Source: Paenibacillus pasadenensis DSM 19293 (GTDB lineage Bacteria > Bacillota > Bacilli > Paenibacillales > Paenibacillaceae). From it: a DNA stretch of 64,000 nt. Position 1 is the first letter of the stretch. Each line of letters opens with the position of its first letter. The translations under genes and the position numbers were made by a program. Positions 1,519-23,179 of this stretch are shown piece after piece. Below the pieces are notes generated by a model. That model saw nothing but the letters and a program-made list of their open reading frames with translations, ran no database searches and had not been told where the DNA came from. The DNA lies in assembly GCF_000422485.1 (NCBI RefSeq), contig NZ_AULW01000030.1, positions 62,001-126,000 on the forward strand. Direction: 5' to 3'.

Positions 1519-1570
1519 CGGATGGCGCCTGAAACCGGCGCGCCCAATCGAAGAAAGGTGGAATCCAGCC

Positions 1571-2590
1571 ATGGCCGGCACGGAGAGGAACATCGCGGAG
1601 GGCTCGCTCGCCCGCGCGTTCGAAAAGGACTTTTATATCGGCGCGGCCGTCAGCTCGCGCACGATCGTCAGCCAGAAGGAGCTGCTGATCGGGCAGTACA
1701 ACAGCTTGACGGCTGAAAATGAAATGAAGTTCGCAAGCGTGCACCCGCAGGAGCGGACGTACACGTTCGAGGAGGCCGACCGGATCGCGGACTTCGCCCG
1801 CGAGCATGGAATGAAGCTGCGCGGACATACGCTCGTCTGGCACAACCAGACGCCGGACTGGGTGTTCGAGGACGGGCAGGGCGGCGAGGCCGGACGGGAG
1901 CTGCTGCTGGAGCGCATGCAAGCCCATATCGAGAAGGTCGTGGGCCGCTATTCGGCAACGGTCTATGGCTGGGATGTCGTCAATGAAGCGGTGACGGACG
2001 AAGGCGAGGCGCTGCTGCGCCCGTCGCGCTGGCTGAAGGGCATCGGAGAGGACTACATCGCGCAGGCGTTCCGCTTCGCGCATGCGGCGGACCCGAACGC
2101 GCTGCTGTTCTACAACGACTACAACGAATGCAATCCGGGCAAGCGCGACAAGATCTGCCGGCTCGTCCGCAGCCTGCTGGACGAGGGGGCGCCGATCCAC
2201 GGCATCGGCCTGCAGGCGCACTGGAATGTGCAGGATCCGCCGCTCGACGACATTCGGGCCGCGATCGAAGCCTATGCCGCGCTCGGCCTGCAGCTGCAGA
2301 TTACGGAGATGGACGTATCGGTATTTGCGTTCCAGGACCGGCGCGCGGATCTCGCGGAGCCGACCGCGGAAATGCTGCGGCTGCAGGAGCAGCGGTACCG
2401 CCAGTTTTTCGACCTGTTCCGCGAGTACAGCGGCACGATCACCGGCGTCACGTTCTGGGGGGCGGCCGACGACTATACGTGGCTGGACGATTTTCCGGTA
2501 CGGGGGCGCAAAAACTGGCCGCTGCTGTTCGACGAGCGGCAGCGGCCGAAGGCGGCGCTGCGCGCCGTGCTCGGCACGGATCGGACTTGA
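1571..2590 (+). CDS. endo-1,4-beta-xylanase, GH10, intracellular
   Basis: The 339-residue protein is a single GH10 catalytic barrel. Visible hallmarks are NSLTAENEMKF, the RGHTLVWHNQTPDW strand, the acid/base Glu139 in WDVVNEA, and the nucleophile Glu246 in QLQITEMDVSV. A conserved Trp-rich end (GVTFWGAADDYTWL) is also present. There is no signal peptide, so the enzyme should cut imported xylo-oligosaccharides or aldouronates in the cytoplasm. The ATG at 1571 is preceded by AAGAAAGGTGG; the frame is open further upstream but only through the AbrB tail of the previous gene. The gene leads the large xylan locus and ends in a long terminator hairpin. Confidence 0.93.
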   Translation: MAGTERNIAEGSLARAFEKDFYIGAAVSSRTIVSQKELLIGQYNSLTAENEMKFASVHPQERTYTFEEADRIADFAREHGMKLRGHTLVWHNQTPDWVFEDGQGGEAGRELLLERMQAHIEKVVGRYSATVYGWDVVNEAVTDEGEALLRPSRWLKGIGEDYIAQAFRFAHAADPNALLFYNDYNECNPGKRDKICRLVRSLLDEGAPIHGIGLQAHWNVQDPPLDDIRAAIEAYAALGLQLQITEMDVSVFAFQDRRADLAEPTAEMLRLQEQRYRQFFDLFREYSGTITGVTFWGAADDYTWLDDFPVRGRKNWPLLFDERQRPKAALRAVLGTDRT

Positions 2591-3472: not shown

Positions 3473-3689
3473 GATAAGAACCTCGCTTTCTGGCGATATT
3501 CTTCAAGCGTCCATGAAGGATGGTTCTATTATGGCCGCGATCCGCGAACGCAGACAACGTGCATTTCTTTGGACGCTCACCAATCCTTTACTTTTTTCCC
3601 GAGGCGGATTCCGAGCGGCCGCGCGGGGACGGGAAACCTATAGTTCGGCAGGTGACGGGCCTGCAGGGAGGCAGGTTGATGGCTCCAAA

Positions 3690-3703: not shown

Positions 3704-3738
3704 TTTGCTGTGTAATCCTAAATCCGAGGGGGATGGAC

Positions 3739-5127
3739 ATGAAAGCAAGCAAGTGGACGCCGCTGCTTCTCAGCCTCATCATCGCAGGATCCATGACCGC
3801 CTGCAGCTCGAGCCCGAACGGAGGCGCGGCGAATTCGGCCTCCGAAAGCGCGAATGCAGGCGTCAACGAGGCCGGCGCCAACTCGCCGGCGGCAAACGAA
3901 GGCGCAGCCGAGGCGGAGGAGCTTGCGACGCCGGAGATGGACTTCGACATGGGCGGCCGCACGATCAAGATTGTCTCCTGGTGGGACATGACGATTCCGG
4001 AAGACAATCCGGACAACATCCAGAAAAAGAAAAATCTCGACGAGCTGATGAAGAAGCATAACTTCAAGGTCGAATACGTCGCGATCGACTACGGAGAGTA
4101 CCAGCAGAAGGTCGTCGCCTCGCTGCTGGCCGGCGAGCCGATCGGCGATATCGTCCGGCTCGGCAAGACGTATACGATCCCGACGCTGGTCAAGCAGGAT
4201 CTGCTCTGGCCGGTCGACGAGTACACGAAAAACTCCCGGGCGTTCAATCAAAAGGTGACGGACGAGTACATGCAGTACGAGGGCAGAGGGTACGGCTTCA
4301 CGGACAATCAGGCGAATCTCGTGCAGGGCGTCTTTTACAACAAGACGTTGATGAACCAGCTCGGCCTGAAGCCTCTCCAGGACTATGTGAACGAGGACGC
4401 GTGGAACTGGGATGCGTTCATCCAGGTGATCAAGGACTCCAACAAGGATACGAACAACGACGGCAAGCTCGATACATGGGGGCTCGCCAACTCGAACCTG
4501 ATGGACCACGCGCTGTATTCGAACGAAGCGGCGCTCACGCTGGGCGAGAAGCAGAACCTCGACGATCCGAAGACGCTGGAGTCGCTGAACTTCATCTCCC
4601 GGCTCGCCACCGAAAAGCTGGCCCGCCCGACGGAAGGCGGCGACTGGACGGAGCCGGGGCAGTTTTTCCGCCAGGGCAACACGCTGATGTACGCAGGCGC
4701 GCTCTGGGAATTCGGCGGCTTCAAGACCGACATGGCCGATTACGAGCTGGGCTACGTGCCGTTCCCGAAAGGCCCGAGCGCGACGAGCTACCACTCGGCC
4801 GAGGCGCTGTTCCAGTCGCTGACGATTCCGAAGGCGGTCGAGCATCCGGAGCAGCTGCTGTACATCTGGGAAAAGATCCACGACATCGAGTCCGTCTACG
4901 ACTATCCCGACCAGGGCTCGTATGAGACGAACTTCACGACCGAGGAAGACATCGAGAACGCCAAGATGGTCGCCCCGAACATGATCGTGCTCGATCACAA
5001 CACGTTCCCGAACCTCAAGTATTACGATTTCGTCGGCGAGCTGAACGCCGGCACGTCGGTCTCGACCGTCGTCGAGAAGTACAAGGCGGCTTTCCAGGCC
5101 GCGATCGACGAAGTGTACCAAAACTGA
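3739..5127 (+). CDS. extracellular sugar-binding lipoprotein (ABC importer), paralogue 1
   Basis: The 462-residue protein has a lipoprotein signal with the lipobox Cys at residue 22 (AGSMTAC), then a Ser/Asn/Ala-rich linker and a family-1 solute-binding fold. Features include LAGEPIGDIVRL, an EF-like DTNNDGKLDTWGL loop and the hydrophobic ligand-pocket segment PTEGGDWTEPGQFFRQGNT. The ATG at 3739 is chosen over 3733 because GAGGGGG lies directly against 3733 and at good distance from 3739. A clear paralogue of exactly the same length lies at 18412-19800. Together with the permeases downstream it should deliver plant-derived oligosaccharides. The exact ligand is unknown. Confidence 0.92.
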   Translation: MKASKWTPLLLSLIIAGSMTACSSSPNGGAANSASESANAGVNEAGANSPAANEGAAEAEELATPEMDFDMGGRTIKIVSWWDMTIPEDNPDNIQKKKNLDELMKKHNFKVEYVAIDYGEYQQKVVASLLAGEPIGDIVRLGKTYTIPTLVKQDLLWPVDEYTKNSRAFNQKVTDEYMQYEGRGYGFTDNQANLVQGVFYNKTLMNQLGLKPLQDYVNEDAWNWDAFIQVIKDSNKDTNNDGKLDTWGLANSNLMDHALYSNEAALTLGEKQNLDDPKTLESLNFISRLATEKLARPTEGGDWTEPGQFFRQGNTLMYAGALWEFGGFKTDMADYELGYVPFPKGPSATSYHSAEALFQSLTIPKAVEHPEQLLYIWEKIHDIESVYDYPDQGSYETNFTTEEDIENAKMVAPNMIVLDHNTFPNLKYYDFVGELNAGTSVSTVVEKYKAAFQAAIDEVYQN

Positions 5128-5213: not shown

Positions 5214-8111
5214 ATGTCCCGGAAACGAAAGAGATACGGAATCGCCGTGCTGGCGCTGATCGTCGCGGCCGTCTCGATCGGGCTGCTCGCCCCGTCGGAC
5301 CGCAGCGGCCTGGCGAGCGTGAAGGCGATGAGCGACTTCGAGGCGATCGTCGGCAAGCAGGATGAGGCGAGCTACGGCCGCTATCTGGAGCGCCACGCCT
5401 CGGACGAGAGGCCGGACGCGACGATCCGGATCGAAGGCGAGAGCTTCTCGCATGCCGCGGGCGGCAGGTTTACGGTCGAGCAAGGATATGAAGGCTTGGA
5501 CGGGACGGCGGTCGTCACGCCCGAGACGGGTTCGATCAGCTGGAATGTGAACGTGAACAAAGCGGGCCTTTACCAGATTCGGATCCATTATTTCCCGGTC
5601 GAGGGCAAAAGCTCGGCGATCGAGCGGCAGCTGACGCTAGGCGGCGAGCTGCCGTTCCGCGGCGCGGAGAAGCTGTCGCTGTACCGGATCTGGGGCAATC
5701 GCGAGGAAGCGGTCCGCCGGGACGACCGGGGCAACGACCTGAGGCCGCGCCAGGTCGAGAAGGCCGCCTGGCAGCTCGAGCCGCTCCAGGACGGCGAGGG
5801 CTATGAGGATGAGCCGTACCGGTTCTATTTCAAGCAAGGAGAGCAGACGCTCACGCTGACCGCCGCGCGCGAGCCGATGGCCATCGACTATATCGAGCTC
5901 TCTCAGGAGCAGCCGCTCAAAACCTATGCGGAGCTCAAGCAGGAGTACGCCGAGAAAGGGCTGGCCGAAGCGAAGGATCGGCAGCTGAAGATCCAGGCCG
6001 AGCATGCCGTGCTCAAGTCGTCGCCGACGCTGTATCCGCTGTCCGACCGCTCGAGCCCTTCGGTCGAGCCGTACGATGTGTCCAAGATCCGCGTCAATGC
6101 GATCGGCGGCCTGAACTGGAAGCTGCCGGGACAATGGATCGAGTGGGAGGTCGACGTGCCGGCGGAAGGGTTGTACCAGATCGCCCTCAAGCGCAAGCAG
6201 GACCAGCTGCGCGGCGTCTACAGCACGCGCAGCCTGACGATCGACGGCGAGGTTCCATTCAAGGAAATGAAGGAGATCGCGTTTCCCTTCGACATGGACT
6301 GGCGCATGCAGGTGCTTGGCGCCGAGGAGCCGTACCTGTTCCATCTGACGGCAGGCAAGCACCGCATCCGCCTGACCGTATCGCTCGGACAGATGGCGCC
6401 GCTGCTCGAGACGATCGAGTCGAGCGTGCTGCAGCTGAACGAGATCTATCGCAAGATTCTCGTCATCACCTCCAATACGCCCGACCCGTACCGGGACTAT
6501 CAGCTCGAGAAGCGCATTCCGGAAATGACGGAGGTGTTCCGCAAGCAGGCGGACACGATCGAGAGCGTCGCCGACTACCTCGAGGAGATGACCGGCGAGG
6601 TCAGCGACAAGGTCGCGGTGCTCCATACGATGGTGCGCCAGCTTCGCGAGATGGAGAGCGAGCCGGAGACGGTCGCGCGCAGGCTGAGCTCCTACAAGAT
6701 CAATGTCGGCGGCCTCGGCACCTGGATCCTCACCGTGCGAGAGCAGCCGCTGTCGCTCGACTATCTCGTCGTCAGCTCGCCTGACCGCAAGCTGCCGGAT
6801 GCGGCGGCGACCTTGCTGGACAAGGCGAGGCATGAGCTGGGCGGATTCGTCGCCTCGTACACCGAGGATTACGACAGCATCGGCAATACGGGCGACTCCG
6901 GCCGGTCGATCACGGTATGGATCACGACCGGACGCGACCAGGCGCAAGTGCTGAAAAGCCTGATCGACGACAGCTTCACGCCCGACACGGGCATCTCGGT
7001 CAAGCTGCGGCTCGTGCCGCCGAACATCCTGCTGCCGGCCACGCTGGCCGATGAAGGGCCGGATGTCGCGATGCAGATCGGAGAGGACCTGCCAGTCAAC
7101 TATGCGATGCGCGCGGCAGCGGCCGATCTGACGCAGTTCGCCGACTTCGAGCAGGTCGCCTCCCGCTTTCGGGACAGTGCTCTGACCCCATATGCGTTCC
7201 AGGACGGCTTCTACGCGCTGCCGGAGCAGCAGACGTTCCCGATGCTGTTCTACCGCAAGGACATCCTCGGCAGCCTCGGGCTGGAGCCGCCCAAAACCTG
7301 GCAGGACGTGTACAACCTGATCTCGGTGCTGCAGAAGAGCAACATGGAGTTCTGGCTGCCGATCGACTCGGTGAACAACAACTCGACGCTCGTCCCGAAC
7401 GCGACGTTCTCGATGATGCTGTTCCAGCATGGCGGCGAGTTTTACCGCGACGACGACAAGCGGAGCGGGCTCGACTCCGACATCTCGATGGACGCGTTCA
7501 AGACGTGGACGAAGTTTTATACGAACTACAAGTTCCCGCTGCTCGCGGACTTCCCGAACCGGTTCCGCACGGGCGAGATGCCGATCGGCATCGCCGACTA
7601 CACGACCTACAACTCGCTGACGGTCATGGCGCCGGAGATCAAGGGGCTGTGGGACTTCACGATGGTGCCGGGCTCGGTGCAAGAGGACGGCAGCGTCAGC
7701 CATGAGGTCGCGAGCCATACGACCGGCGTCATGATGCTGCAGAACGCCAAGGACAAGGACGCCTCCTGGTCGTTCATGAAATGGTGGACCGGCAAGGAGA
7801 CGCAGGTCGCCTACGGCCGCGAGATGGAAGGGCTGATGGGCGAGGCCGCCCGTTATCCGACCGCGAACATCGCTGCTCTCGAGGAGCTTCCGTGGCCGGT
7901 CAAGGACTACCGCAACCTGGAAAGCCAGTGGGAGTGGGTGCGCGGCATCCCGCAGGTGCCCGGCGGCTACTTCACGGGCCGCCATCTGGACAACGCCTTC
8001 CGCAAAGTCGTGAACCAGGCGGAAAACCCGCGCGAGGCGCTGTCGGACTACCTGCTCTACATCAACGATGAAATCGAGATCAAGCGGAAGGAATTCAACC
8101 TTCCGTATTAG
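5214..8111 (+). CDS. 965-residue carbohydrate-binding and solute-binding fusion protein
   Basis: The N terminus has basic residues and one hydrophobic segment (about 9-26) without a lipobox Cys, so the protein is either membrane-anchored or secreted. Two beta-rich lobes follow (about 60-225 and 260-400), each starting with an IRIEGE- or IQAEHA-like strand and ending in a YIEL or QLNE strand, in the style of CBM6/CBM35-like modules. After a charged helical region (about 410-480), a family-1 solute-binding domain fills about 563-965 (ITVWITTGRDQ, FYRKDILGSLGLEPPKTW). The gene is directly upstream of a permease pair. It probably concentrates glycans at the importer. The fusion is far longer than an ordinary binding protein. 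Confidence 0.85.
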   Translation: MSRKRKRYGIAVLALIVAAVSIGLLAPSDRSGLASVKAMSDFEAIVGKQDEASYGRYLERHASDERPDATIRIEGESFSHAAGGRFTVEQGYEGLDGTAVVTPETGSISWNVNVNKAGLYQIRIHYFPVEGKSSAIERQLTLGGELPFRGAEKLSLYRIWGNREEAVRRDDRGNDLRPRQVEKAAWQLEPLQDGEGYEDEPYRFYFKQGEQTLTLTAAREPMAIDYIELSQEQPLKTYAELKQEYAEKGLAEAKDRQLKIQAEHAVLKSSPTLYPLSDRSSPSVEPYDVSKIRVNAIGGLNWKLPGQWIEWEVDVPAEGLYQIALKRKQDQLRGVYSTRSLTIDGEVPFKEMKEIAFPFDMDWRMQVLGAEEPYLFHLTAGKHRIRLTVSLGQMAPLLETIESSVLQLNEIYRKILVITSNTPDPYRDYQLEKRIPEMTEVFRKQADTIESVADYLEEMTGEVSDKVAVLHTMVRQLREMESEPETVARRLSSYKINVGGLGTWILTVREQPLSLDYLVVSSPDRKLPDAAATLLDKARHELGGFVASYTEDYDSIGNTGDSGRSITVWITTGRDQAQVLKSLIDDSFTPDTGISVKLRLVPPNILLPATLADEGPDVAMQIGEDLPVNYAMRAAAADLTQFADFEQVASRFRDSALTPYAFQDGFYALPEQQTFPMLFYRKDILGSLGLEPPKTWQDVYNLISVLQKSNMEFWLPIDSVNNNSTLVPNATFSMMLFQHGGEFYRDDDKRSGLDSDISMDAFKTWTKFYTNYKFPLLADFPNRFRTGEMPIGIADYTTYNSLTVMAPEIKGLWDFTMVPGSVQEDGSVSHEVASHTTGVMMLQNAKDKDASWSFMKWWTGKETQVAYGREMEGLMGEAARYPTANIAALEELPWPVKDYRNLESQWEWVRGIPQVPGGYFTGRHLDNAFRKVVNQAENPREALSDYLLYINDEIEIKRKEFNLPY

Positions 8112-8128
8112 TCAGGAGGCGACGTCCG

Positions 8129-9091
8129 ATGCAAGCCGAGACTACACCGAGCGGGGCCGTGCCTGGCCTGGCCCGGAAGGCGGAGAAGAAGTCCAGGCTC
8201 GGCCCCGCGCTCAAGGAAATAGGCAAGCACAAGCATGCCTACATCCTCATGGGTCCGTACATGATCCTTTTTTTCCTCTTCACCGTCATTCCCGTCGTCT
8301 TCTCGCTGCTCCTCAGCTTCTTCTACTTCAACATGCTGGAGTTTCCGCGGTTCGTCGGCTGGCAGAACTACTCGCGCCTGCTGCTGAACGACGACGTCTT
8401 CATGATCGCGCTCAAGAACACCTTCCTGTTCGCCGTCATCACCGGGCCGGTCAGCTATGTCGCCTGCTTCCTGTTCGCCTGGATCATCAACGAGCTGTCG
8501 CCGAAGGTGCGGGCGGTCATGACGCTCGTCTTCTACGCGCCGTCGATCTCGGGCAACGTGTTCTTCATCTGGCTGATCGTGTTCTCGGGCGACAGCTACG
8601 GCTATCTGAACGGCTTCCTCATCAAATACGGCTTCATCCTGGAGCCGATCCAGTGGCTGACCAACGAGAACTACATCCTGCCGATCGTCATCCTCGTGCA
8701 GCTGTGGCTGAGCCTCGGCACGAGCTTCCTCGCCTTCATCGCCGGCCTGCAGACGATCGACAAGTCGCTGATCGAGGCGGGGGCGGTCGACGGCATCCGC
8801 AACCGCTGGCAGGAGCTGTGGTTCATCACGCTGCCGTCGATGCGGCCGCAGCTGCTGTTCGGGGCGGTGCTGCAGATCACGTCCTCGTTCGCGGTCGCCG
8901 ACATCTCGATCGCGCTGGCCGGCTTCCCAAGCGTCAACTACGCGGCGCATACCGTCGTGACGCATCTGATGGACTACGGCACGATCCGCTTCGAGATGGG
9001 CTACGCGTCCGCGATCGCGACCGTGCTGTTCGGGATCATGATCGGCACGAACATGCTGACGCAAAAACTGCTGCGCAAGGTAGGGGAGTGA
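8129..9091 (+). CDS. sugar ABC importer permease, MalF/LplB type
   Basis: A 320-residue polytopic protein with about six membrane helices. It has the cytoplasmic EAA loop (IEAGAVDGIRNRWQELWFIT, then LPSMRP) that docks the ATPase. It starts at ATG 8129 after GGAGGCG and is followed after one base by the MalG-type partner. It belongs to the carbohydrate uptake-1 family, which works with a shared MsmX-type ATPase; no ATPase gene lies in this locus. The adjacent binding proteins suggest xylo-oligosaccharides as cargo. Confidence 0.92.
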   Translation: MQAETTPSGAVPGLARKAEKKSRLGPALKEIGKHKHAYILMGPYMILFFLFTVIPVVFSLLLSFFYFNMLEFPRFVGWQNYSRLLLNDDVFMIALKNTFLFAVITGPVSYVACFLFAWIINELSPKVRAVMTLVFYAPSISGNVFFIWLIVFSGDSYGYLNGFLIKYGFILEPIQWLTNENYILPIVILVQLWLSLGTSFLAFIAGLQTIDKSLIEAGAVDGIRNRWQELWFITLPSMRPQLLFGAVLQITSSFAVADISIALAGFPSVNYAAHTVVTHLMDYGTIRFEMGYASAIATVLFGIMIGTNMLTQKLLRKVGE

Positions 9092-9092
9092 G

Positions 9093-9968
9093 ATGAGCAT
9101 GAAAATGATCCCGGCGCTGCGGGCGCCGAAAAGGCTGAACCGCTCCTTGACGGTCAGCTTCCTTCTGTTCGCGCTGCTGGCCGTGTTCGGCGCCTTCATG
9201 GCGCTGCCGCTCGTCTACGCGATCAACAACGCCTTCAAGCCGCTCGACGAGCTGTTCATCTTCCCGCCGCGTGTCCTCGTCAGCAATCCGACCTTCGACA
9301 ATTTCTACGATCTGGTCGCCCTGATGGGCAGCTCGTGGGTGCCGTTGTCCCGCTATATCGGCAATACGCTGCTCATCACGCTTGTCGGCACGGCCGGACA
9401 TATCCTGCTCGCGTCCGCCGCCGCCTATCCGCTCGCCAAGTACAAGATGCCCGGCGGCAAGACGCTGTTCTCCATCGTCGTCCTGTCGCTGATGTTCTCG
9501 GGCCACGTCACGGCGATTCCGAACTACATGGTCATGTCGTGGCTCGGCTGGATCAACACGCATGCGTCGATCATCGTGCCGGCGCTCGCCTTTCCGCTCG
9601 GATTGTTCCTGATGAAGCAGTTCATGGAGCAGATTCCCGACGCGCTCATCGAGGCGGCCAAGATCGACGGAGCGAACGAGTACCGGATCTACTGGACGAT
9701 CGTCATGCCGAACGTCAAGCCGGCCTGGCTGACGCTCATGATCCTGCAGTTCCCGATGCTGTGGGGCACCGACGGCGGCAGCTTCATTTACAGCGAAAAC
9801 TTGAAGACGCTTCACTACGCGCTCGGCCAAATCACGCAGGGCGGGATCGCGCGGGCGGGCGTCGGAGCGGCGGTCGCCTTGATCCTCATGATCGTGCCGA
9901 TCACGCTGTTCATCCTCTCCCAGAGCAGCGTCATCCAGACGATGGCGACCTCCGGGATGAAAGAATAG
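9093..9968 (+). CDS. sugar ABC importer permease, MalG/YtcP type
   Basis: A 291-residue partner permease with six hydrophobic segments and the EAA loop IEAAKIDGANEYRIYWTIVM. The start at 9093 has GGGGAG five bases upstream and follows the previous stop after one base, so translation is probably coupled. The C-terminal Pro- and Met-rich helix (LILMIVPITLFILSQ) is typical of the second permease of this family. It forms the first of two permease pairs in the locus. Confidence 0.92.
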   Translation: MSMKMIPALRAPKRLNRSLTVSFLLFALLAVFGAFMALPLVYAINNAFKPLDELFIFPPRVLVSNPTFDNFYDLVALMGSSWVPLSRYIGNTLLITLVGTAGHILLASAAAYPLAKYKMPGGKTLFSIVVLSLMFSGHVTAIPNYMVMSWLGWINTHASIIVPALAFPLGLFLMKQFMEQIPDALIEAAKIDGANEYRIYWTIVMPNVKPAWLTLMILQFPMLWGTDGGSFIYSENLKTLHYALGQITQGGIARAGVGAAVALILMIVPITLFILSQSSVIQTMATSGMKE

Positions 9969-9985
9969 AAAGGAGCCGTTGCGCG

Positions 9986-11449
9986 ATGCTGGCATTGCTA
10001 CGAAGGACCAAGAGCCATCTTCTGATCGCCGCGGCCTGCCTGCTGGGGACCAGCCTCGGCGGCGGGATCGCAGGAGCGGAAGATACGGCGGGCTCCTACA
10101 ATTATTCCTTCTGGGGAGACACGGTGTCGGCGCCGGCCGCCTATCAGGCGACGGAGCTGCTCGGCGGAGACGATCTCGGCGCCGGTGCTCTGAAGGAGCC
10201 GAGCGATTTGCATGTGACCGATGACGGAGAGATCTACCTGCTGGACTCCGGCAACAACCGGGTGCTCGTGCTCGGTCCCGGCTTCAAGCTCGACCGGGTG
10301 ATCGACTCGTTCGAGCGGGACGGTAAGCGCGAGACGTTCTCGAATCCGCAGGGGCTGTTCGTCACGGACGACAAGGAGCTTGTCGTCGCCGATACGGGCC
10401 ACAAGCGGGTCGTTCGGCTCGACCGCGAGGGCGGGCTGCGGCAGGTCGTCGAAAATCCGACCTCCGAGTTTCTCGCCGAAGGGTTCTCCTTCTCCCCGGT
10501 GCGTGTCGTCGTCGACAAGGCGCAGCGGATGTACGTGATGGCGGCCGGCGTGTTCGACGGCTTCATGGAATTCAGCTCGAGCGGAGACTTCACGTCGTTC
10601 ATCGGCGCCAACCGCGTTTATTTCAACCCGATGGACCATCTCTGGAAAATGCTGTCCACCAAGGCGCAGCGCAGCCAGATGGTCATGTTCACGCCGACCG
10701 AATATACGAACCTCGACATCGACGAGGAAGGCTTCCTGTACGCGACGAACGGCCAGGTGACCGACAGCGTGCGCAAGCTGAACGCGCAAGGGACGGACAT
10801 CCTGCGCCGGGAGGGCTACTTCGCCCCGGAGGGCGACATCTACTACACGATCGAGGACGGGCCGGCCCGTCTCGTCGACATCGACGTCGGCGACAGCGAG
10901 ATGTACTCCATCCTCGATGCGAGCCGCGGACGGATCTTCACCTACAACGGCGACGGCCATTTCATGTATGTGTTCGGCGGGATCGGCAACCAGCTCGGGG
11001 AGTTCAAAAACCCGACCGCCGTCGATCGGCTCGGCGAGGACTTTCTCGTACTCGACAAAGCGCTCGGCGAGCTGACCGTATTCCGCACGACGGAATACGG
11101 GCGCACGCTGAACGAGGCGGTGCGCAGCTATTATCGCGGCGACGAGGAGCAGGCGTACGAGAAGTACCGCCAGACGATCCAGATGAACGCCAATCTCGAG
11201 TTCGCCTACTCCGGCATCGGCAAGGCGCTGCTGCGGCAAGGGGATTACCGGGAGTCGATGGCCTACTTCAAGCAGAGCATGGACCAGGAGGGCTACTCCA
11301 AAAGCTTCCTGCTGTACCGCAAGCAGGTGCTGCGCAGCCACTTCGCGACGATCATGAGCGTCGTGCTCGCGCTGGCGGCCGGGTATGCCATATTCCGCAA
11401 ATACCGCAAGGCGAAAGGAGGGGGAAAGGTTGCGGCAATGGAATCGTGA
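9986..11449 (+). CDS. NHL-repeat protein with TPR and C-terminal membrane helix
   Basis: The 487-residue protein has an N-terminal signal or anchor sequence (about 8-28). NHL-like beta-propeller repeats follow (EPSDLHVTDDGEIYLLDSGN, NPQGLFVTDDKELVVADTGH, NLDIDEEGFLYATNG, KNPTAVDRLGEDFLVLD). Two tetratricopeptide-like units come next (AYEKYRQTIQMNANLEFAYS, then YRESMAYFKQSM), and a C-terminal transmembrane helix ends in a basic tail. The propeller should lie outside the cell. Its place between two importer permease pairs points to a scaffold or sensor linked to transport; no enzymatic residues were recognised. The ATG at 9986 has AAAGGAG ten bases upstream. Confidence 0.85.
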   Translation: MLALLRRTKSHLLIAAACLLGTSLGGGIAGAEDTAGSYNYSFWGDTVSAPAAYQATELLGGDDLGAGALKEPSDLHVTDDGEIYLLDSGNNRVLVLGPGFKLDRVIDSFERDGKRETFSNPQGLFVTDDKELVVADTGHKRVVRLDREGGLRQVVENPTSEFLAEGFSFSPVRVVVDKAQRMYVMAAGVFDGFMEFSSSGDFTSFIGANRVYFNPMDHLWKMLSTKAQRSQMVMFTPTEYTNLDIDEEGFLYATNGQVTDSVRKLNAQGTDILRREGYFAPEGDIYYTIEDGPARLVDIDVGDSEMYSILDASRGRIFTYNGDGHFMYVFGGIGNQLGEFKNPTAVDRLGEDFLVLDKALGELTVFRTTEYGRTLNEAVRSYYRGDEEQAYEKYRQTIQMNANLEFAYSGIGKALLRQGDYRESMAYFKQSMDQEGYSKSFLLYRKQVLRSHFATIMSVVLALAAGYAIFRKYRKAKGGGKVAAMES

Positions 11450-12065
11450 AGCGCTGCGCTATCCGTTTTATGTCATCCTGCATCCGTTCAACGGCTACTG
11501 GGACCTCAAGTACGAGCGAAGCCGGAGGCTGAACCTGATCCTGTCGCTCGCCATCCTGTGCCTGCTGGCGCTCACGAACATCCTGCAGACGCAGTACAGC
11601 GGCTTTGTCGTGAACCTCGTCTATCCGGACAGCATCAACAGCCTGATGGAGATCGTCTACGTCTTTGTCCCCGTGCTGTTCTGGTGCGTCGCCAACTGGT
11701 CGCTGACGACCCTCATGGACGGCGAAGGAAAATTCCGCGACATCTTCGCCTCGACCTGCTTCGCGCTGGCGCCGCTCGTCGTCATTCATTTCCCGTGGAT
11801 CTGGCTGAGCAACGTCATCTCCTTGCAGGAGGTCCCGTTCTATCGGTTCTCCACGAGCGTGGCGCTGCTCTGGTCGGCGTTCCTGCTGTTCGTCGGAAAT
11901 ATGACCGTGCATCAATATTCGCCGATGAAAACGATCGGCATGATCATCCTGACGCTCGTCGCGATGGGCTTCATGGCGTTCCTCTGTCTGCTGTTCTTCA
12001 GCCTGATCCAGCAGATCGTGTCGTTCGTCAGCATCATCTATCAAGAGATCGCGCTTCGCGGCTGA
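11430..12065 (+). CDS. YIP1-family membrane protein
   Basis: The TTG at 11430 is chosen because AGGAGGGGG ends five bases before it; the nearest in-frame ATG further upstream lies inside the NHL gene and has no ribosome site. The gene overlaps the previous one by 20 bases. The 211-residue product begins with a short amphipathic stretch (REALRYPFYVILHPFNGYWD) and has five hydrophobic helices, as in YIP1 integral membrane proteins. The function of bacterial YIP1 proteins is unknown. In this locus it is locked into the operon with the NHL protein and the DUF5696 lipoprotein. Confidence 0.85.
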   Translation: MRQWNREALRYPFYVILHPFNGYWDLKYERSRRLNLILSLAILCLLALTNILQTQYSGFVVNLVYPDSINSLMEIVYVFVPVLFWCVANWSLTTLMDGEGKFRDIFASTCFALAPLVVIHFPWIWLSNVISLQEVPFYRFSTSVALLWSAFLLFVGNMTVHQYSPMKTIGMIILTLVAMGFMAFLCLLFFSLIQQIVSFVSIIYQEIALRG

Positions 12066-12083
12066 GAGAGAGGAGGGGTGGAC

Positions 12084-14633
12084 ATGAGCAAGATCCAAAA
12101 AGCGCTGCTTGCCGGCGCGATCGCGGCCGCCCTGCTGGCGGCAGGCTGCTCCGGCGAAGGCGCGGATGCCGGAGCGGGGCAGGAAGCGCCGGCTGTGGAG
12201 GCGTTCGCGAAGGGCAAGCCGCTGCAGGCGTCCTTCGCCGACAGCCGGCTGAGCGGGATGAAGGGCGTCGCCGAGAACGGCAGGCTGCGCCTGCTGGCGA
12301 ACGACGAGACGGGCGAGATCGCCGTCCTCGATCAGGCGTCGGGAGAGATCTGGCGCAGCAATCCGGCCGAGGCGGACGCCGATCCGCTCGCCTCCGGCAT
12401 CAACAAGGAGCTGCTGTCTTCGCAGCTGCAGCTTGATTTCTACAACAGCTTCGGCCAGATCAGCTCGATCAACTCGTTCACGGACAGCGTCAAGCACAAG
12501 CAGCTCCGGATGGAGAAGATCGACGGCGGCGTCAGCGTCACCTACCAGTTCGGCACCGCTCAGAAAACAGCGGAGGACGTGCCGCTGCGGCTGAGCGCCA
12601 AGCGGATGGAGGAGCTGAGCGCCAAGCTGGACAATACCGGCAAGCGCGCCCTGAAGATCGCCTATACGGAAAACAAGGAGACGGCGGTGTTCGAACGGAA
12701 CGACGACGCCTTGAACGGCCTGCAGCTCACGCGCGCGCTGCAGGCGCTGGAGACGGCCGGCTATACGCCGGAGCTGCTCGAGCAGGACATGGCCGAGCTG
12801 GGCTTCACGCAGGAGAAGGCCGCGCCGCGCGTCTTCCAGGCGACGGTGAACTATACGCTGGAGGAGGGCTCGCTGCTCGTGCATGTGCCGGTCGGCGAGA
12901 TCCAGTTTCCGGCGGCCTATCCGGTGAATACGATTTCCGTGCTGAGCTTTTTCGGAGCGGGGAGCGCCCGGGAGCAGGGCTCGATCTTCGTGCCGGACGG
13001 CTCCGGCTCGCTGATCCATTTCAACAACGGAAAGGCCAAATACCCGGCATACCAGCAGATGGTGTACGGCTCGGATCAGACGATGGACCGGATCGAGGAC
13101 GACGCCCGCGAGCAGCCGGTCCGCCTGCCGGTATTCGGCCTGATCAAGGAGAAAGGGGCGTTCCTCGGCATCATCGAGGAAGGCGCTGCGGCCGCGGCCG
13201 TCAAGGCGGACGTAAGCGGACGGCTGAACAGCTACAACAACGTCTATCCGAGCTTCTATGTGATCAACAAGGGAGAAGTGACGCTCGACGCGAACGGACA
13301 GCAGCGCTCGCTGCCGAAATTCCAGGAAGCGCCGATGAAAAGCGACTTCAAGGTGCGGTACGTCTTTTTGAGCGGCGAGGACGCCTCCTATGAAGGCATG
13401 GCGCGGTATTACCGCAGCTATCTGCTGGACGGCGGCGCGCTGGCGAAGCCGGCCGAAGCGAAGGCCGAGGACATGCCGTTCTACCTGCAGCTGGTCGGCA
13501 GCATCTCCAAGAAGAAGCATCTCCTCGGCATTCCTTATGAGGCGCAGGTGCCGCTGACGACGTTCAAGCAGGCGGAGGACATCGTGGAGCGGCTGCAGGA
13601 GCGCCGCATCAGCTCGATCAGGCTGAAGTACGACGGCTGGTTCAACGGCGGTCTCGACCATAAGGTGCCGTCGAGCGTTTCGGTCGACCGGGCCGTCGGC
13701 GGAGCCAAGGGACTGGAGAGCTTCGCGGCCTTCGCCAAGGCCAAGGGGATCGAGCTGTATCCGGCCGCCGCGCTGCTTGTCGCCCGCACGACCAAAGGCT
13801 TCGACGAGTCGGATGACGCCGCCCGGACGCTGCGCGCGGTGCCGGCCCGCGTCTATCCGCTCGACCTCGCGCTGAATCGGCGCGACCGCACTCAGGAGCC
13901 GTCCTACGTCGTCTCGCCTCGGTTCGCGCCGAGCTATGCGGGCACGCTTGCCGACAGCCTGAAGGACAGCGGAGCCGGAGGCGTCGCGCTGACCGATCTG
14001 GCCAGCCAGCTGAACAGCGATTACCGCAAGCGGGATCAGATCGACCGCACCGAGTCGGAGCACTATTCGCTGGATGCGCTGCAGCAATTCCGGGAGCGCG
14101 GACTGAGCATGATGGGCGAGGGAGGCAACGTTTACGCGCTGCCGTATTTGACCGACGTGACGCATGCGCCGATGGGCAACAGCAGCTTCAAGCTGGAGGA
14201 CGAGGAGATTCCGTTCTACCAGATGGTCGTGCGCGGCTCGGTCCGCTACGCCGGCCGGCCGTTCAACCTGTCCTCGTACACGGATGACCGCCTGTATGTG
14301 CTGCGCTGCATCGAGTACGGCGCGGGCGTATCGTTCGAGTGGATCTATGCGCCGAACAGCAGCGTCAAGGACAGTGACTATCACCGGCTGTACGCGGTCA
14401 ACTACGGCATGTGGCTCGACAAGGCCGCCGCGATGTACAAGGAAGTGAACGAGGCGCTCGGGCCGGCCGGCCAAAGCCCGATCGTCGGCCATGAAAAGCT
14501 GGCGGACGGCGTATATCGGACGGAGTACGGCAGCGGCCTGGCCGTCATCGTGAACTACAACGCGCATCCGGTGCAGGCCGAAGGCAGGACGATCGAGGCG
14601 CGAAGCTATGCGACAGGGGGCGGACAGGCATGA
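12084..14633 (+). CDS. DUF5696-type lipoprotein
   Basis: The 849-residue protein begins with a lipoprotein signal (LLAAGC, Cys at about residue 23). The ATG at 12084 lies five bases after AGGAGGGG; the GTG two codons earlier overlaps that site. The body contains GSGSLIHFNNGKAKYP and SIRLKYDGWFNGGLDH, and a late half with alternating strands and helices (LYPAAALLVA, GGVALTDLAS, GEGGNVYALPYLTD) that reads like a TIM-barrel of glycosidase type. I assign it to the DUF5696 family known beside sugar transporters of Paenibacillaceae. Glycosidase activity is a guess from fold appearance. Its stop overlaps the next permease start. Confidence 0.8.
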   Translation: MSKIQKALLAGAIAAALLAAGCSGEGADAGAGQEAPAVEAFAKGKPLQASFADSRLSGMKGVAENGRLRLLANDETGEIAVLDQASGEIWRSNPAEADADPLASGINKELLSSQLQLDFYNSFGQISSINSFTDSVKHKQLRMEKIDGGVSVTYQFGTAQKTAEDVPLRLSAKRMEELSAKLDNTGKRALKIAYTENKETAVFERNDDALNGLQLTRALQALETAGYTPELLEQDMAELGFTQEKAAPRVFQATVNYTLEEGSLLVHVPVGEIQFPAAYPVNTISVLSFFGAGSAREQGSIFVPDGSGSLIHFNNGKAKYPAYQQMVYGSDQTMDRIEDDAREQPVRLPVFGLIKEKGAFLGIIEEGAAAAAVKADVSGRLNSYNNVYPSFYVINKGEVTLDANGQQRSLPKFQEAPMKSDFKVRYVFLSGEDASYEGMARYYRSYLLDGGALAKPAEAKAEDMPFYLQLVGSISKKKHLLGIPYEAQVPLTTFKQAEDIVERLQERRISSIRLKYDGWFNGGLDHKVPSSVSVDRAVGGAKGLESFAAFAKAKGIELYPAAALLVARTTKGFDESDDAARTLRAVPARVYPLDLALNRRDRTQEPSYVVSPRFAPSYAGTLADSLKDSGAGGVALTDLASQLNSDYRKRDQIDRTESEHYSLDALQQFRERGLSMMGEGGNVYALPYLTDVTHAPMGNSSFKLEDEEIPFYQMVVRGSVRYAGRPFNLSSYTDDRLYVLRCIEYGAGVSFEWIYAPNSSVKDSDYHRLYAVNYGMWLDKAAAMYKEVNEALGPAGQSPIVGHEKLADGVYRTEYGSGLAVIVNYNAHPVQAEGRTIEARSYATGGGQA

Positions 14634-15532
14634 GGATCGGATGGAGGACGCGTTCCTATGCGCAGCAAAAGGCGATGTGGGGGTTTCTGTTCGTGCTTCC
14701 CTGGCTGCTCGGATTCATCTTTTTCTTCCTGCTGCCGTTCCTGACGTCGTTCCGCTACAGCCTCAGCACGATCGAGGCCAACTCCAAGGGCATCATCGTC
14801 ACCTATGCCGGCTTCGCCAACTATGTCAACGCGCTGACCGTCCATACGAGCTTCAACCGCATCCTGACGGAGTCGATCGTGAACATGGTCGTCAACGTGC
14901 CGCTCATCATCATCTTCAGCCTGTTCCTGGCCGTCCTGCTGAACCAGAAGTTCCTCGGCCGGTCGATCGCGCGCTCGATCTTCTTCCTGCCGGTCATCCT
15001 GTCGTCCGGCGTCATCATGACGCTGGAGTCGAGCAGCCTCGTGCAGGCGGTCAACGATCAGGCGGCCGGGTCCGGAGGACTGATGAACTCGTTCGGAGCC
15101 TACGAGCTCGCGCGGCTGATGATGCGCTCGGGCGTCAACGAGACGATCGTCCTTTATTTGACGGAAGCGGTCGGGCGCATCTATGAGATCGTCAGCCAGT
15201 CGGGCGTGCAGATCCTGATCTTTCTCGCCGGCATCCAGTCGATCTCGCCGCAGCTGTACGAGGCGTCCAAGATGGAGGGCGCGACGGGCTACGAAGCGTT
15301 CTGGAAGATTACGTTTCCGATGGTCAGCCCGCTCATCCTGGTGAACCTGGTCTATACGATCATCGACTCCTTCGCCAGGAACAATATGACCGACCTGATC
15401 CGCGAGACCGGCTTCACGACCTTCAACTTCGGCCTGAGCTCGGCGATGGCATGGATCTACTTCGCCTCGATCCTGCTCATTCTGCTGCTCAGCGTCTACA
15501 TCGTCTCCAAGCGGGTCTTCTATCAAGAGTAG
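14630..15532 (+). CDS. second sugar ABC permease, MalF/LplB type
   Basis: This 300-residue permease has about six membrane helices and the EAA-type loop ASKMEGATGYEAFWKITFPM. It starts with an ATGA overlap on the DUF5696 gene, which implies translational coupling. It is not closely similar to the first MalF-type permease by eye, so the second pair is not a recent duplicate. A periplasmic-side insertion (about residues 143-185, containing GSGGLMNSFGAYEL) is longer than usual. Confidence 0.9.
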   Translation: MRIGWRTRSYAQQKAMWGFLFVLPWLLGFIFFFLLPFLTSFRYSLSTIEANSKGIIVTYAGFANYVNALTVHTSFNRILTESIVNMVVNVPLIIIFSLFLAVLLNQKFLGRSIARSIFFLPVILSSGVIMTLESSSLVQAVNDQAAGSGGLMNSFGAYELARLMMRSGVNETIVLYLTEAVGRIYEIVSQSGVQILIFLAGIQSISPQLYEASKMEGATGYEAFWKITFPMVSPLILVNLVYTIIDSFARNNMTDLIRETGFTTFNFGLSSAMAWIYFASILLILLLSVYIVSKRVFYQE

Positions 15533-15547: not shown

Positions 15548-16495
15548 GTGACAACCGCCCGCTTGTTTTCGCTGGAAAGCTGGAAGCGCTGGTCATGGTC
15601 CATCGTCCGGCTGACGCTCATCGTCGGCCTGTCGTTCGTCATCCTGTATCCGATCCTTCAAAAGATCTCGACCGCGATCAAGGACAAAAAAGACTTGTAT
15701 TCGCCGATCGTCGTGTGGATACCCGAAACCTATTCCTGGAACAACTTCAAGCAGGCCATCTCGATCATGGATTACTGGCATACGCTGCTCAACACCTTCT
15801 CGCTGTCGCTGCTGACGACGGTGCTGACCGCAGCCTCGTGCGCGCTGGCCGGCTACGGCTTCGCCCGGCTCAAGTTCAAGGGCAGCGGCCTGCTGTTCGC
15901 CGGCGTCATCCTGACGATCATGGTGCCGCCAACGACGATCCTGATTCCGATCTACCTCAATCTGAAGGACTTCACGCTGATGGGCATCATCCCGCTGCTG
16001 ACCGGGAAGTCGGTCAATCTGCTCAACACGTATTGGCCGTTCATCCTGACGAGCATCACGGCGAATTCGTTGAAGGCCGGCCTGTACATCTTCATTTTCC
16101 GGCAATTTTTCCGAGGCGTGCCCAAGGAGGTCGAGGAAGCGGCCTACATCGACGGCGCGGGCGTCGTGCAGACGTTCCTGCGCATCATGCTGCCGAACGC
16201 CGTCCCGTCCATCGTCACCGTCACGCTGTTCTCGTTCGTCTGGCAGTGGAACGACAGCTTCTTCACGACGACCTACCTGACCTCGAGCAAGGTCTTGTCG
16301 ACGCAGCTCTCGTCGCTGCCCTACAACCTGGCCATCTTCCTGCAGGACGGGGATGCTTCGCAGGCGGATCCGTTCTATCTGAGCATGGTCCAGGATACGG
16401 GCATCCTGCTGGCGATCCTGCCGCTCATCGTCCTTTATCTGTTCGTGCAGCGCTACTTCGTCGAGAGCATCGAGCGGACCGGCATCGTCGGCTAG
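15548..16495 (+). CDS. second sugar ABC permease, MalG/YtcP type
   Basis: A 315-residue permease with a GTG start at 15548, preceded by AGGGGAGTGAG. It has six hydrophobic helices and the loop EEAAYIDGAGVVQTFLRIML that contacts the ATPase. It pairs with the gene 15 bases upstream to make the second importer channel of the locus. The C-terminal segment FVQRYFVESIERTGIVG is the usual family ending. Confidence 0.92.
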   Translation: MTTARLFSLESWKRWSWSIVRLTLIVGLSFVILYPILQKISTAIKDKKDLYSPIVVWIPETYSWNNFKQAISIMDYWHTLLNTFSLSLLTTVLTAASCALAGYGFARLKFKGSGLLFAGVILTIMVPPTTILIPIYLNLKDFTLMGIIPLLTGKSVNLLNTYWPFILTSITANSLKAGLYIFIFRQFFRGVPKEVEEAAYIDGAGVVQTFLRIMLPNAVPSIVTVTLFSFVWQWNDSFFTTTYLTSSKVLSTQLSSLPYNLAIFLQDGDASQADPFYLSMVQDTGILLAILPLIVLYLFVQRYFVESIERTGIVG

Positions 16496-16544: not shown

Positions 16545-18074
16545 ATGAGCGCAGTCATCTCGAATCCGATTGTGTGGGCCGATGTGCCGGATCCGTGCGT
16601 CATCCGCGTCGGCTCCGCCTTTTACATGGTCAGCACGAGCATGCACTCGATGCCCGGCTGTCCGATCCTGAAGTCCGTCAACCTGCGGGACTGGGAGCTG
16701 ATCGGCTACGTCTACGATACGCTTGAGGACAACGAGGCCCATCGCCTGCAGGACGGCCGGGGCATCTACGGAAAAGGCTCCTGGGCGGCTTGCCTCAGGC
16801 AGCATGGCGGCTGGTTCCATGTCTGCTTTTCCAGCAACGACATGGACCGCTTCTACATGTACCGGACGCGCGACATCGAGCGCGGTCCGTGGGAGCGCCA
16901 TGTCATGCCCGGCCTGCTGCATGATCCGAGCCTGCTGTTCGACGACGGGCGCGTCTATGTCATCCACGGCAACGGCGACATCCGCATCACGGAGCTGACG
17001 GCCGATGCGACGGCGCGGCTGCCGGGAGGCGTCGACCGGCTGCTGCTCGCGACGGAGACCGAGGGCATCGGGCTGTGCTGCGAGGGCTGCCATGCTTTCC
17101 AGAGGAACGGCTTCTATTACCTGTTCTTCATCGAATGGCCGCGCACGGGAAATCGCCGGCGCCGCCAGCTCGTCTACCGCTCGCAGCGGCTGCTCGGACC
17201 GTACGAGCGGCGCGAGCTGCTGGACGACGATCTCGGCTATCGCAACAACGGCGTCGCCCAAGGCGGCATCGTGGACGACGGCCTTGGCGGCTGGCATGCC
17301 GTGCTGTTCCAGGATCATGGCGCGGTCGGCCGCGTTCCGTGCGTCGTGCCGGTGACCTGGGAGGACGACTGGCCGGTCTTCGGCGTCGATGCCAAGGCGC
17401 CGCTGTCCTATGCGACGGGGCTGCCCGCATCGGCGCCGCAGCCGCTTGCCGCAAGCGACGAGTTCGACTACGGCTCGGACCGGCTCGGACTTTTCTGGCA
17501 ATGGAACCATAATCCCGATCCGCGGCTCTGGTCGGTGACCGAGCGGCCGGGCTATTTGCGGCTGCGGACCGGCATGCTCGCCAGCAGCGTCGAATACGCC
17601 CGCAATACGCTGACGCAGCGGACCGAAGGACCGGCCTGCAGCGCGAGCGTGCTGCTCGACGCCGCCGGCCTGCTGCCCGGCGATCGGGCGGGACTGGCCG
17701 CACTGTCGTCGCAGTTCGGCCTGATCGGCCTGCGGGCGGAGGCGGACGGGAAACGAAGCGTCGTCATGGCAGTGAAGGGCGAGGACGGAGGGGAGCTTGT
17801 GCGGGAGAGCCGTCCTTACGCCAAGGACTGCATCTTCCTGCGGCTTGACTGCCGCTTCGAGGAGGGAGAGGATATCGCGGAATTTTTCTATTCGGAGGAT
17901 GGAGCGGCATGGGAGCGGCTTGGCCCGCCGCTGGAGATGGCGTATACGCTCCATCATTTCATGGGCTACCGCTTCGGGCTGTTCTGCTATGCGACCGAGC
18001 ATGCGGGAGGCTTCGCCGACCTGGATTATTTCCGCTATCGCAAGGTCAGCGGGCGGACGGCGGCTGATGGCTGA
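16545..18074 (+). CDS. GH43-family glycosidase (beta-xylosidase/arabinofuranosidase type)
   Basis: The 509-residue protein has no signal peptide. The five-bladed propeller carries the three family acids: Asp16 as likely base (DVPDPCVIRVG), Asp127 (LLHDPSLLFDDG) and the general acid Glu180 (CCEGCHAF). A C-terminal beta-sandwich (about 305-500) of the kind fused to many GH43 xylosidases follows. It should remove xylose or arabinose from short oligomers after import. It follows the second permease pair after 49 bases and has GTGGAGG before its ATG. Substrate choice between xylose and arabinose is not decidable here. Confidence 0.9.
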   Translation: MSAVISNPIVWADVPDPCVIRVGSAFYMVSTSMHSMPGCPILKSVNLRDWELIGYVYDTLEDNEAHRLQDGRGIYGKGSWAACLRQHGGWFHVCFSSNDMDRFYMYRTRDIERGPWERHVMPGLLHDPSLLFDDGRVYVIHGNGDIRITELTADATARLPGGVDRLLLATETEGIGLCCEGCHAFQRNGFYYLFFIEWPRTGNRRRRQLVYRSQRLLGPYERRELLDDDLGYRNNGVAQGGIVDDGLGGWHAVLFQDHGAVGRVPCVVPVTWEDDWPVFGVDAKAPLSYATGLPASAPQPLAASDEFDYGSDRLGLFWQWNHNPDPRLWSVTERPGYLRLRTGMLASSVEYARNTLTQRTEGPACSASVLLDAAGLLPGDRAGLAALSSQFGLIGLRAEADGKRSVVMAVKGEDGGELVRESRPYAKDCIFLRLDCRFEEGEDIAEFFYSEDGAAWERLGPPLEMAYTLHHFMGYRFGLFCYATEHAGGFADLDYFRYRKVSGRTAADG

Positions 18075-18292: not shown

Positions 18293-18411
18293 GGCTGGAA
18301 GCCAACCTAAAAGAATGAAATCTGACCCGAAAAATGAAGAAAAGCTGTCTTCGCAAGGGGTATTGAAAGCGCTGCATCGGAGATGCAGCCGATTCAAAAG
18401 GGGGATTGTTC
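18075..18411. other. 337-base gap: antisense coding remnant, cre-like site and leader
   Basis: The first two thirds read like decayed coding DNA on the minus strand (listed separately). The last third is AT-richer and carries the cre-like site, a stem-loop and the ribosome site AAAAGGGGGA of the next gene. No tRNA or recognised riboswitch was seen. Confidence 0.6.
18364..18389 (+). promoter_or_regulatory. cre-like site with overlapping stem-loop before the second solute-binding gene
   Basis: TGAAAGCGCTGCAT (18364-18377) matches the CcpA consensus at 12 of 14 positions. A perfect 8-bp stem (GCTGCATC/GATGCAGC, loop GGA, 18371-18389) overlaps it, just before the ribosome site. The arrangement resembles that of the paralogous gene at 3739. 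Confidence 0.45.
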
Positions 18412-23121: not shown

Positions 23122-23179
23122 CGGATGGCCCGCGGCCGGGCTGGCGTATGGAGCCTCTTTCGCCGACGGAGAGGAGCCG

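Follow-up and report, generated by a model that had tools for sequence, protein, structure and literature searches.

The window analysed here, 64,000 nucleotides (nt) of Paenibacillus pasadenensis DSM 19293 (contig NZ_AULW01000030.1, positions 62,001 to 126,000), carries a cassette of eight genes, all on the + strand and in the order fusSBP, permA, permB, NHL/TPR, YIP1, DUF5696, permC and permD. These encode a fusion solute-binding protein (SBP), two pairs of ATP-binding cassette (ABC) importer permeases and three accessory proteins. A common function of the eight-gene block is strongly supported. With a probability of roughly 55 %, and on comparisons of sequences and predicted folds, the cassette is interpreted as a conserved cell-surface module of Bacillota for the capture and import of oligosaccharides, which would combine two importers of the CUT1 type, a propeller/YIP1 scaffold and a receptor derived from a glycosidase.

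An earlier note on this DNA had proposed a tightly packed, undescribed transport-associated envelope complex at positions 5214-14633. Its gene positions and strand were correct, and the packing was borne out by the junctions, all of which overlapped or measured at most 18 nt. Read from the sequence, the overlap of NHL/TPR with YIP1 is 20 nt long and that of DUF5696 with permC 4 nt, in agreement with the claimed coupling of YIP1 to the NHL protein and of DUF5696 to the second permease pair; the remaining gaps from fusSBP to permD were 1-18 nt. The unit was drawn too short, as the second permease pair lies outside that span and yet is part of the unit, which reaches 16495, and the "five proteins of odd architecture" were in fact three accessory proteins and the fusion binding protein.

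Conservation of the cassette

A search of GTDB species genomes with the DUF5696 profile gave at least 562 relatives among 592 pattern matches. The best 80 of these relatives, together with four loci from searches of the window's own genome and of plasmids, made up a set of 84 loci, mostly from Paenibacillaceae, that were picked by DUF5696 similarity and not by their neighbours. The exact eight-gene order was encountered in 67 out of 84 and the same order with NHL and YIP1 fused in another 11; the six left over (L067, L074, L080, L086, L106 and L119, the last being the same contig stretch as L151) displayed contig ends or frameshifts. Accessory genes were thus not found mostly apart from transporters, 78 loci having an intact order. 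A binding protein of the SBP1 kind (Table 1) lay upstream of fusSBP in most listed loci. Two further copies in the same order, with DUF5696 proteins 37 % and 28 % identical to that of the window, were present in the 49 contigs (5.7 Mb) of the genome from which the window comes. The order recurred on a Butyrivibrio fibrisolvens plasmid and on a Paenibacillus cellulosilyticus plasmid, the latter with NHL and YIP1 as one protein and a gene for a UgpC-type ATPase next door. In the taxonomic order of the window, DUF5696 was matched in 191 out of 296 sampled genomes, 182 of them above the cut-off.

The distribution was followed across 398 sampled Bacillota genomes, with 3, 8, 4 and 5 candidates scored per genome for DUF5696, YIP1, NHL and fusSBP, respectively. 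Matches were called strong above 400 bits for DUF5696 and at E values of 1e-40 for YIP1 and 1e-60 for NHL, limits that were set after a gap had become visible in the lists. Strong DUF5696 matches were present in 37 genomes. The profile of the cassette YIP1 reached 54 genomes at E 0.001, and its strong matches fell in the same 37 only, the next match following at E 6.5e-11. Strong NHL matches were found in the same 37 genomes and in G534. The chance of drawing identical sets of 37 among 398 genomes was 5e-53 (hypergeometric test, kinship ignored). The profile of the fusSBP N-terminal part matched in 36 of the 37 genomes, the gene of the last one (G396) being cut at a contig start. It also matched in G397 and G446, where fusSBP and a cut permA occupied contigs of 3.8 and 4.3 kb that are uninformative either way, and more weakly in seven genomes lacking DUF5696 (best E 2e-41 to 1e-15), where it may have picked up other proteins with carbohydrate-binding modules. 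In five genomes of 2.2-3.0 Mb (G334, G356, G375, G427 and G457) the cassette has expanded, at least eight matches to cassette-type YIP1 being counted in each.

Twenty-seven of the 58 strong DUF5696 neighbourhoods were inspected, among them L173 from the window's own family and L156 from its class. NHL, YIP1, permC and permD adjoined DUF5696 in all 27. The set fusSBP-permA-permB was also present in 19, four of which (L162, L166, L168 and L170) had it after rather than before the other genes. Conversely, DUF5696 stood beside all 84 strong YIP1 matches listed for the 398 genomes: by coordinates, 57 were within 3 kb of a listed strong DUF5696 match, and inspection of the other 27, from six genomes in which the limit of three scored DUF5696 candidates had been reached, revealed DUF5696 directly downstream in every case. 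All but one of the 58 listed strong DUF5696 matches had a listed YIP1; the exception (G375:C81) begins 478 bases away from the end of a contig. From the 27 neighbourhoods and this converse test, NHL-YIP1, DUF5696, permC and permD therefore form a stable core, to which fusSBP-permA-permB is added as a second unit, usual and separable. The transport association claimed for the accessory genes is strongly supported by these results and by the 84 loci.

Gene labels were given by the best match to our own profiles, and a generic permease pair would also score as permA or permD, so that scores matter: those at five weak DUF5696 matches without cassette (L177-L181), which were not counted as members, ranged from 106 to 166, where complete cassette permeases reached about 227-450. 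Two of these five weak matches, in G593 and G616, were just above the Pfam cut-off.

Given that most of the 80 scan loci belong to Paenibacillaceae, the genes might merely travel together in related genomes. This explanation is hardly credible, since divergent paralogues, Butyrivibrio and genomes throughout the phylum share one gene content, the block order is permuted in the four loci mentioned, and fusion or splitting occurred repeatedly. Chance linkage was rejected by the constant order, the phylum-wide neighbourhoods, the matching genome sets and the converse YIP1 test. A viral origin was rejected as well, 21 pattern matches in a scan of viral contigs including no relative, and so was a defence system, four proteins giving no PADLOC match at E 0.01.

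Importers and the NHL-YIP1 pair

The importer parts of the cassette appear, from their domains and motifs, to be ordinary CUT1. All four permeases displayed BPD_transp_1, and both binding proteins SBP_bac_1, above the cut-off. A pattern search detected an EAA-like loop in 100 out of 102 permA, 93 out of 100 permB, 87 out of 110 permC and 90 out of 112 permD sequences, and both permease pairs therefore look able to dock an ATPase. None was encountered among the proteins of the window operon that were scanned. The own genome encodes one clear stand-alone UgpC/MsmK-like ATPase on another contig (C7:2273-3382), 58 % identical to the one beside the related cassette of the P. cellulosilyticus plasmid. 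CUT1-type ABC sugar importers have the ATPase MsmX/MsmK in common, and the cassette resembles them in having an SBP and two BPD_transp_1 permeases that carry EAA loops; the UgpC-like gene elsewhere in the genome is a candidate for the ATPase. It differs by having two permease pairs, a fusion SBP of ~970 amino acids (aa) with CBM35-like parts and three constant accessory proteins. The N-terminal half of fusSBP (alignment of 99 sequences) matched the glucanotransferase 5x7g of the PDB over one stretch at E 2.7e-9 and other chains weakly elsewhere. These regions matching solved carbohydrate enzymes are presumably CBM35, although the CBM_35 match itself reached 21.3 bits, below the cut-off of 28. 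Each SBP would be paired with one permease pair.

Polymer assembly systems probably also feature large anchored proteins and a layout of propeller and TPR, and the module might accordingly export or build an envelope polymer instead of importing sugars. This is very improbable: the binding proteins, the importer permeases with EAA loops, and GH10 and GH43 enzymes without visible signal peptides favor uptake.

Tight gene spacing alone is no proof of assembly. For NHL and YIP1 there is good evidence, drawn from their sequences, of action as one unit, because the same two partners were repeatedly fused. Fusions accounted for 27 of the 110 labelled rows of the DUF5696 tree (112 rows in total), and the fused or split label changed at least six times, all six changes being forced by starred branches. 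The tree was obtained by a quick method and has several long branches, and some of the six changes may be losses. The fused state of L093 is isolated, its relatives being split, and might result from a frameshift; L074 carries the label split, yet the start of the contig truncates its YIP1. The physical complex of the earlier note thus gained support for NHL-YIP1, with no sign of direct contact for its other members.

The window NHL protein displayed NHL repeats above the cut-off, and its TPR models remained below theirs. A natural NHL-YIP1 fusion, L101, was predicted with a predicted local distance difference test score (pLDDT) of 88.2 and a predicted template modelling score (pTM) of 0.80, without an error matrix for domain placement. 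Its model consists, in order, of a signal, a propeller, TPR-like helices, one long helix and the YIP1 helices, and the propeller resembled NHL structures (Z 28.6 to 6d69 over 276 residues). The Yip1 domain (PF04893) of the cassette protein scored above its curated cut-off (Table 1), and the Yip1 profile gave no match in the PDB up to E 1. In contrast to the rest of that family, cassette YIP1 is a clearly separate group, all strong matches in the 398 genomes being beside DUF5696. Columns P15, G94, G96, P111, E130, H157, E202 and R206 were invariant in 24 YIP1 sequences (alignment A6, window 11442-12062) and include charged residues despite the membrane nature of the protein.

Sensor proteins such as PknD have a propeller outside the membrane and a single membrane helix, and the PknD propeller was among the matches. 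The NHL/TPR-YIP1 pair and DUF5696 could accordingly be a sensor or gate that reports the glycan to the permeases or to nearby two-component regulators, in which case they would be regulators and not structural parts of import; AraC-type regulators, histidine kinases and Cache domains do lie near some cassettes. This role is considered quite unlikely, since the three accessory proteins displayed no signalling domain at E 0.1, and regulators were found at a minority of the scanned flanking open reading frames (ORFs) whereas permC and permD adjoined the accessory genes in every inspected stretch. Extracellular NHL propellers such as the PknD sensor domain (1rwl) share the propeller match and the single helix with the cassette protein; the latter has in addition a TPR-like stretch, no kinase, and fusion or coupling to YIP1.

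DUF5696 and the proposed mechanism

The window DUF5696 was predicted by AlphaFold 2 from 52 sequences (pLDDT 88.1, pTM 0.86), and the predicted fold is that of a GH129-like glycosidase. The best structural match was ZgGH129/DagB (5opq; Z 31.5, root-mean-square deviation 3.8, 584 aligned residues, 18 % identity), followed by NagBb (5wzr; Z 30.6), all other entries having Z 21.3 or less. The DUF5696 sequence profile also reached 5opq, at E 3.1e-9, and the Pfam GH129 model (PF11308) gave no match to the window protein at E 0.1. DUF5696 as a plain binding protein was set aside on account of the GH129-like fold. For DagB, the consulted part of its description names Asp202, Asp486, Glu517 and Glu531 as candidate catalytic residues and, of two NagBb residues, only Asp435 (equivalent to DagB Asp486) as common to both (PMC5698469). 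The catalytic positions were mapped by profile alignment to four GH129 proteins found in the order to which the window belongs. Window E681 aligned with an invariant GH129 Glu and D640 fell two columns off an invariant Asp, so that both catalytic acids are apparently present in the window protein.

Half-way preservation of this pair bears on whether DUF5696 is an ordinary active exo-glycosidase of the surface, which would trim side groups before import and be folded or placed by NHL-YIP1 without any supercomplex. The fold matches and the acids that fall on or close to the catalytic positions of GH129 speak for such an enzyme, both positions being acidic in 50 out of 112 DUF5696 sequences. Position 681, however, was non-acidic in 54 and neither position was acidic in 12, although the partners are constant, and constancy beside varied polysaccharide enzymes speaks against a single bond specificity; the explanation is considered unlikely. 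Since the catalytic pair is eroded while Y445, W521, R657, N730 and E746 were conserved in 111 or 112 of the 112 sequences, the family resembles a glycosidase fold that has been retained for a common role without need of the classical pair in all members. A glycan holder is the simplest reading of the predicted structure. Compared with GH129 and GH129-like glycosidases (NagBb 5wzn; 5opq), DUF5696 shares the predicted fold and, apparently, the acids of the window protein; it differs in lacking a Pfam GH129 match, in the erosion of the pair in many relatives and in being anchored beside importers. A lipobox pattern was found in 63 out of 112 sequences, the pattern being crude and the starts unrefined. 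One DUF5696 frame (L206:3-5720) runs off its stretch after some 1,900 open codons, and this protein may carry a large C-terminal addition.

According to the preferred interpretation as a capture and import module, secreted or surface enzymes would cut the polymer, and surface-anchored, GH129-derived DUF5696 would hold glycan chains, perhaps trimming them in some members, and pass them to the binding proteins. DUF5696, together with the CBM35-like arms of fusSBP, would retain chain ends at the membrane. In the scaffold, the propeller and the TPR stretch would lie outside the membrane, with the C-terminal helix across it and YIP1 within it beside the permeases, and this scaffold would keep receptor, binding proteins and permeases together. 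The importer cores would be permA/permB with the fusion SBP and permC/permD with a lipoprotein SBP, each taking a different class of fragments and both using a common ATPase encoded elsewhere; enzymes without signal peptides would finish the digestion inside the cell. Contact of DUF5696 with the scaffold and the permeases, hand-over of the substrate and sharing of the ATPase are putative elements of this scheme, and the copy in the window would serve xylan-derived oligosaccharides.

Several observations weigh against this scheme. The fusSBP-permA-permB set was absent from eight of the 27 phylum-wide stretches, some of them at contig ends, and from several strong-YIP1 loci fetched in the converse test, and the two importers may therefore act apart. 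Because of the uneven retention of the catalytic acids, present together in 50 and both missing in 12 of the 112 sequences, neither "enzyme" nor "receptor" appears to fit all members of DUF5696. Its contact with NHL-YIP1 or the permeases would follow from co-occurrence and gene overlap only. Finally, G534 contains an N-terminal NHL fragment on an 8.5 kb contig without YIP1, DUF5696 or permease. Read by eye, the NHL frame of this fragment (L190:7685-8536) runs into sequence of another gene; the contig is likely chimeric.

A more far-reaching view, offered tentatively, is that the cassette is a Gram-positive counterpart of Sus in logic and not by homology, in which the DUF5696 receptor and the propeller/TPR-YIP1 scaffold would physically couple the two importers. 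One surface machine would then take in long pieces of polysaccharide directly at their cleavage, and exchange of the enzymes and binding proteins around an unchanging core would determine its glycan specificity. The likeness to Sus glycan uptake lies in logic only, neither a SusC TonB-dependent porin nor SusD being present among the ten window proteins scanned. If this view is true, the cassette supplies the link that has been missing between hydrolysis at the surface and the import of oligosaccharides.

The claim that the complex is undescribed is consistent with the open-access literature, in which no description of the combination was recognised, subscription papers being outside the scope and other wording open to being missed. 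No open-access paper on DUF5696 was found, and a term search in PMC8579813 gave no match. For the JDR-2 xylan system, the consulted text describes surface hydrolysis coupled to transport by an unidentified mechanism (PMC4765114). Gram-positive polysaccharide utilization loci such as this one resemble the surroundings of the cassette in the clustering of glycan enzymes, importers and regulators, and differ in that the transporter table of the same paper consists mostly of three-gene SBP-permease-permease sets (PMC4765114). A term search of its main text, in which YIP1 and DUF5696 were not among the terms, gave no match for NHL (PMC4765114). If the module is what it is proposed to be, the question of hydrolysis-uptake coupling raised in the consulted part of that paper becomes directly testable (PMC4765114). 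Many plant-polymer-degrading Bacillota would furthermore import oligosaccharides via a machine larger than the textbook three-part ABC importer, and DUF5696, the Yip1 group of the cassette and the NHL/TPR anchors would gain a common, testable job.

Gene features and surroundings

Coordinates of the cassette and of the adjoining sugar genes are collected in Table 1. The SBP1 frame opens at 3520, upstream of its likely start, and a lipobox was seen by eye in the translation. YIP1 starts with TTG, preceded by a Shine-Dalgarno-like stretch; for DUF5696 the start is either GTG at 12078 or ATG at 12084.

Table 1. Features of the cassette and adjoining genes (positions in the window)
Feature	Position	Strand	Basis
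GH10 xylanase frame, locus-specific; likely start about residue 65	1379..2590	+	GH10 336.5 bits
SBP1, lipoprotein-type extracellular solute-binding protein	3733..5127	+	SBP_bac_1 75.3 bits; directly upstream of fusSBP
fusSBP, CBM35-like N-terminal domains and SBP_bac_1 domain	5214..8111	+	SBP_bac_1 68.3 bits
permA, ABC importer permease	8129..9091	+	BPD_transp_1
permB, ABC importer permease	9093..9968	+	BPD_transp_1
NHL beta-propeller, TPR-like stretch, one C-terminal transmembrane helix	9986..11449	+	NHL 43.0 bits, cut-off 20
YIP1-domain membrane protein	11430..12065	+	Yip1 52.8 bits, cut-off 28.6; alignment A6
DUF5696 lipoprotein, LAAGC lipobox, predicted GH129-like fold	12078..14633	+	707.5 bits, cut-off 25.6
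permC, ABC importer permease	14630..15532	+	BPD_transp_1 27.7 bits, cut-off 26.4
permD, ABC importer permease	15548..16495	+	BPD_transp_1
GH43 with C2 domain, locus-specific, outside the constant cassette	16545..18074	+	profile match, translation
SBP2, second lipoprotein-type solute-binding protein	18406..19800	+	SBP_bac_1 79.1 bits

Enzymes beside the cassette varied by locus while the cassette remained constant, as would be expected, judging from gene content, of a general uptake machine. The copies of the own genome neighboured GH10 and GH43 in the window, both without a signal peptide by eye, and GH5-CBM46 and GH35 at the two paralogues. Two Pfam scans of neighbours covered 73 of 217 unmatched downstream ORFs and 68 of 160 flanking ORFs, with 25 families listed each out of 58 and 104, some of them unrelated to sugars. 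GH10 was found in 21 of the 73 downstream ORFs of the scan loci. The 68 flanking ORFs, from other loci, displayed GH26, GH3, GH42, GH38, alpha-L-fucosidase and GH28, along with unrelated genes.

Upstream of the xylan genes, the stretch L039:5961-11515 (window up to 1515) contains the first of two ABC ATPases, a 361-aa frame that matches no Pfam family, an FtsX/MacB-like permease of 973 aa and the other ATPase. Still farther upstream on this contig, at L039:2597-5782, an AraC-type response regulator is followed by a GH43 with CBM6. SBP2 is followed by a xylose-isomerase-like TIM barrel protein and a putative esterase (window 19811-21722), and a topoisomerase-like gene (Topoisom_bac, Toprim) lies downstream of the sugar genes at window 23051-25624.

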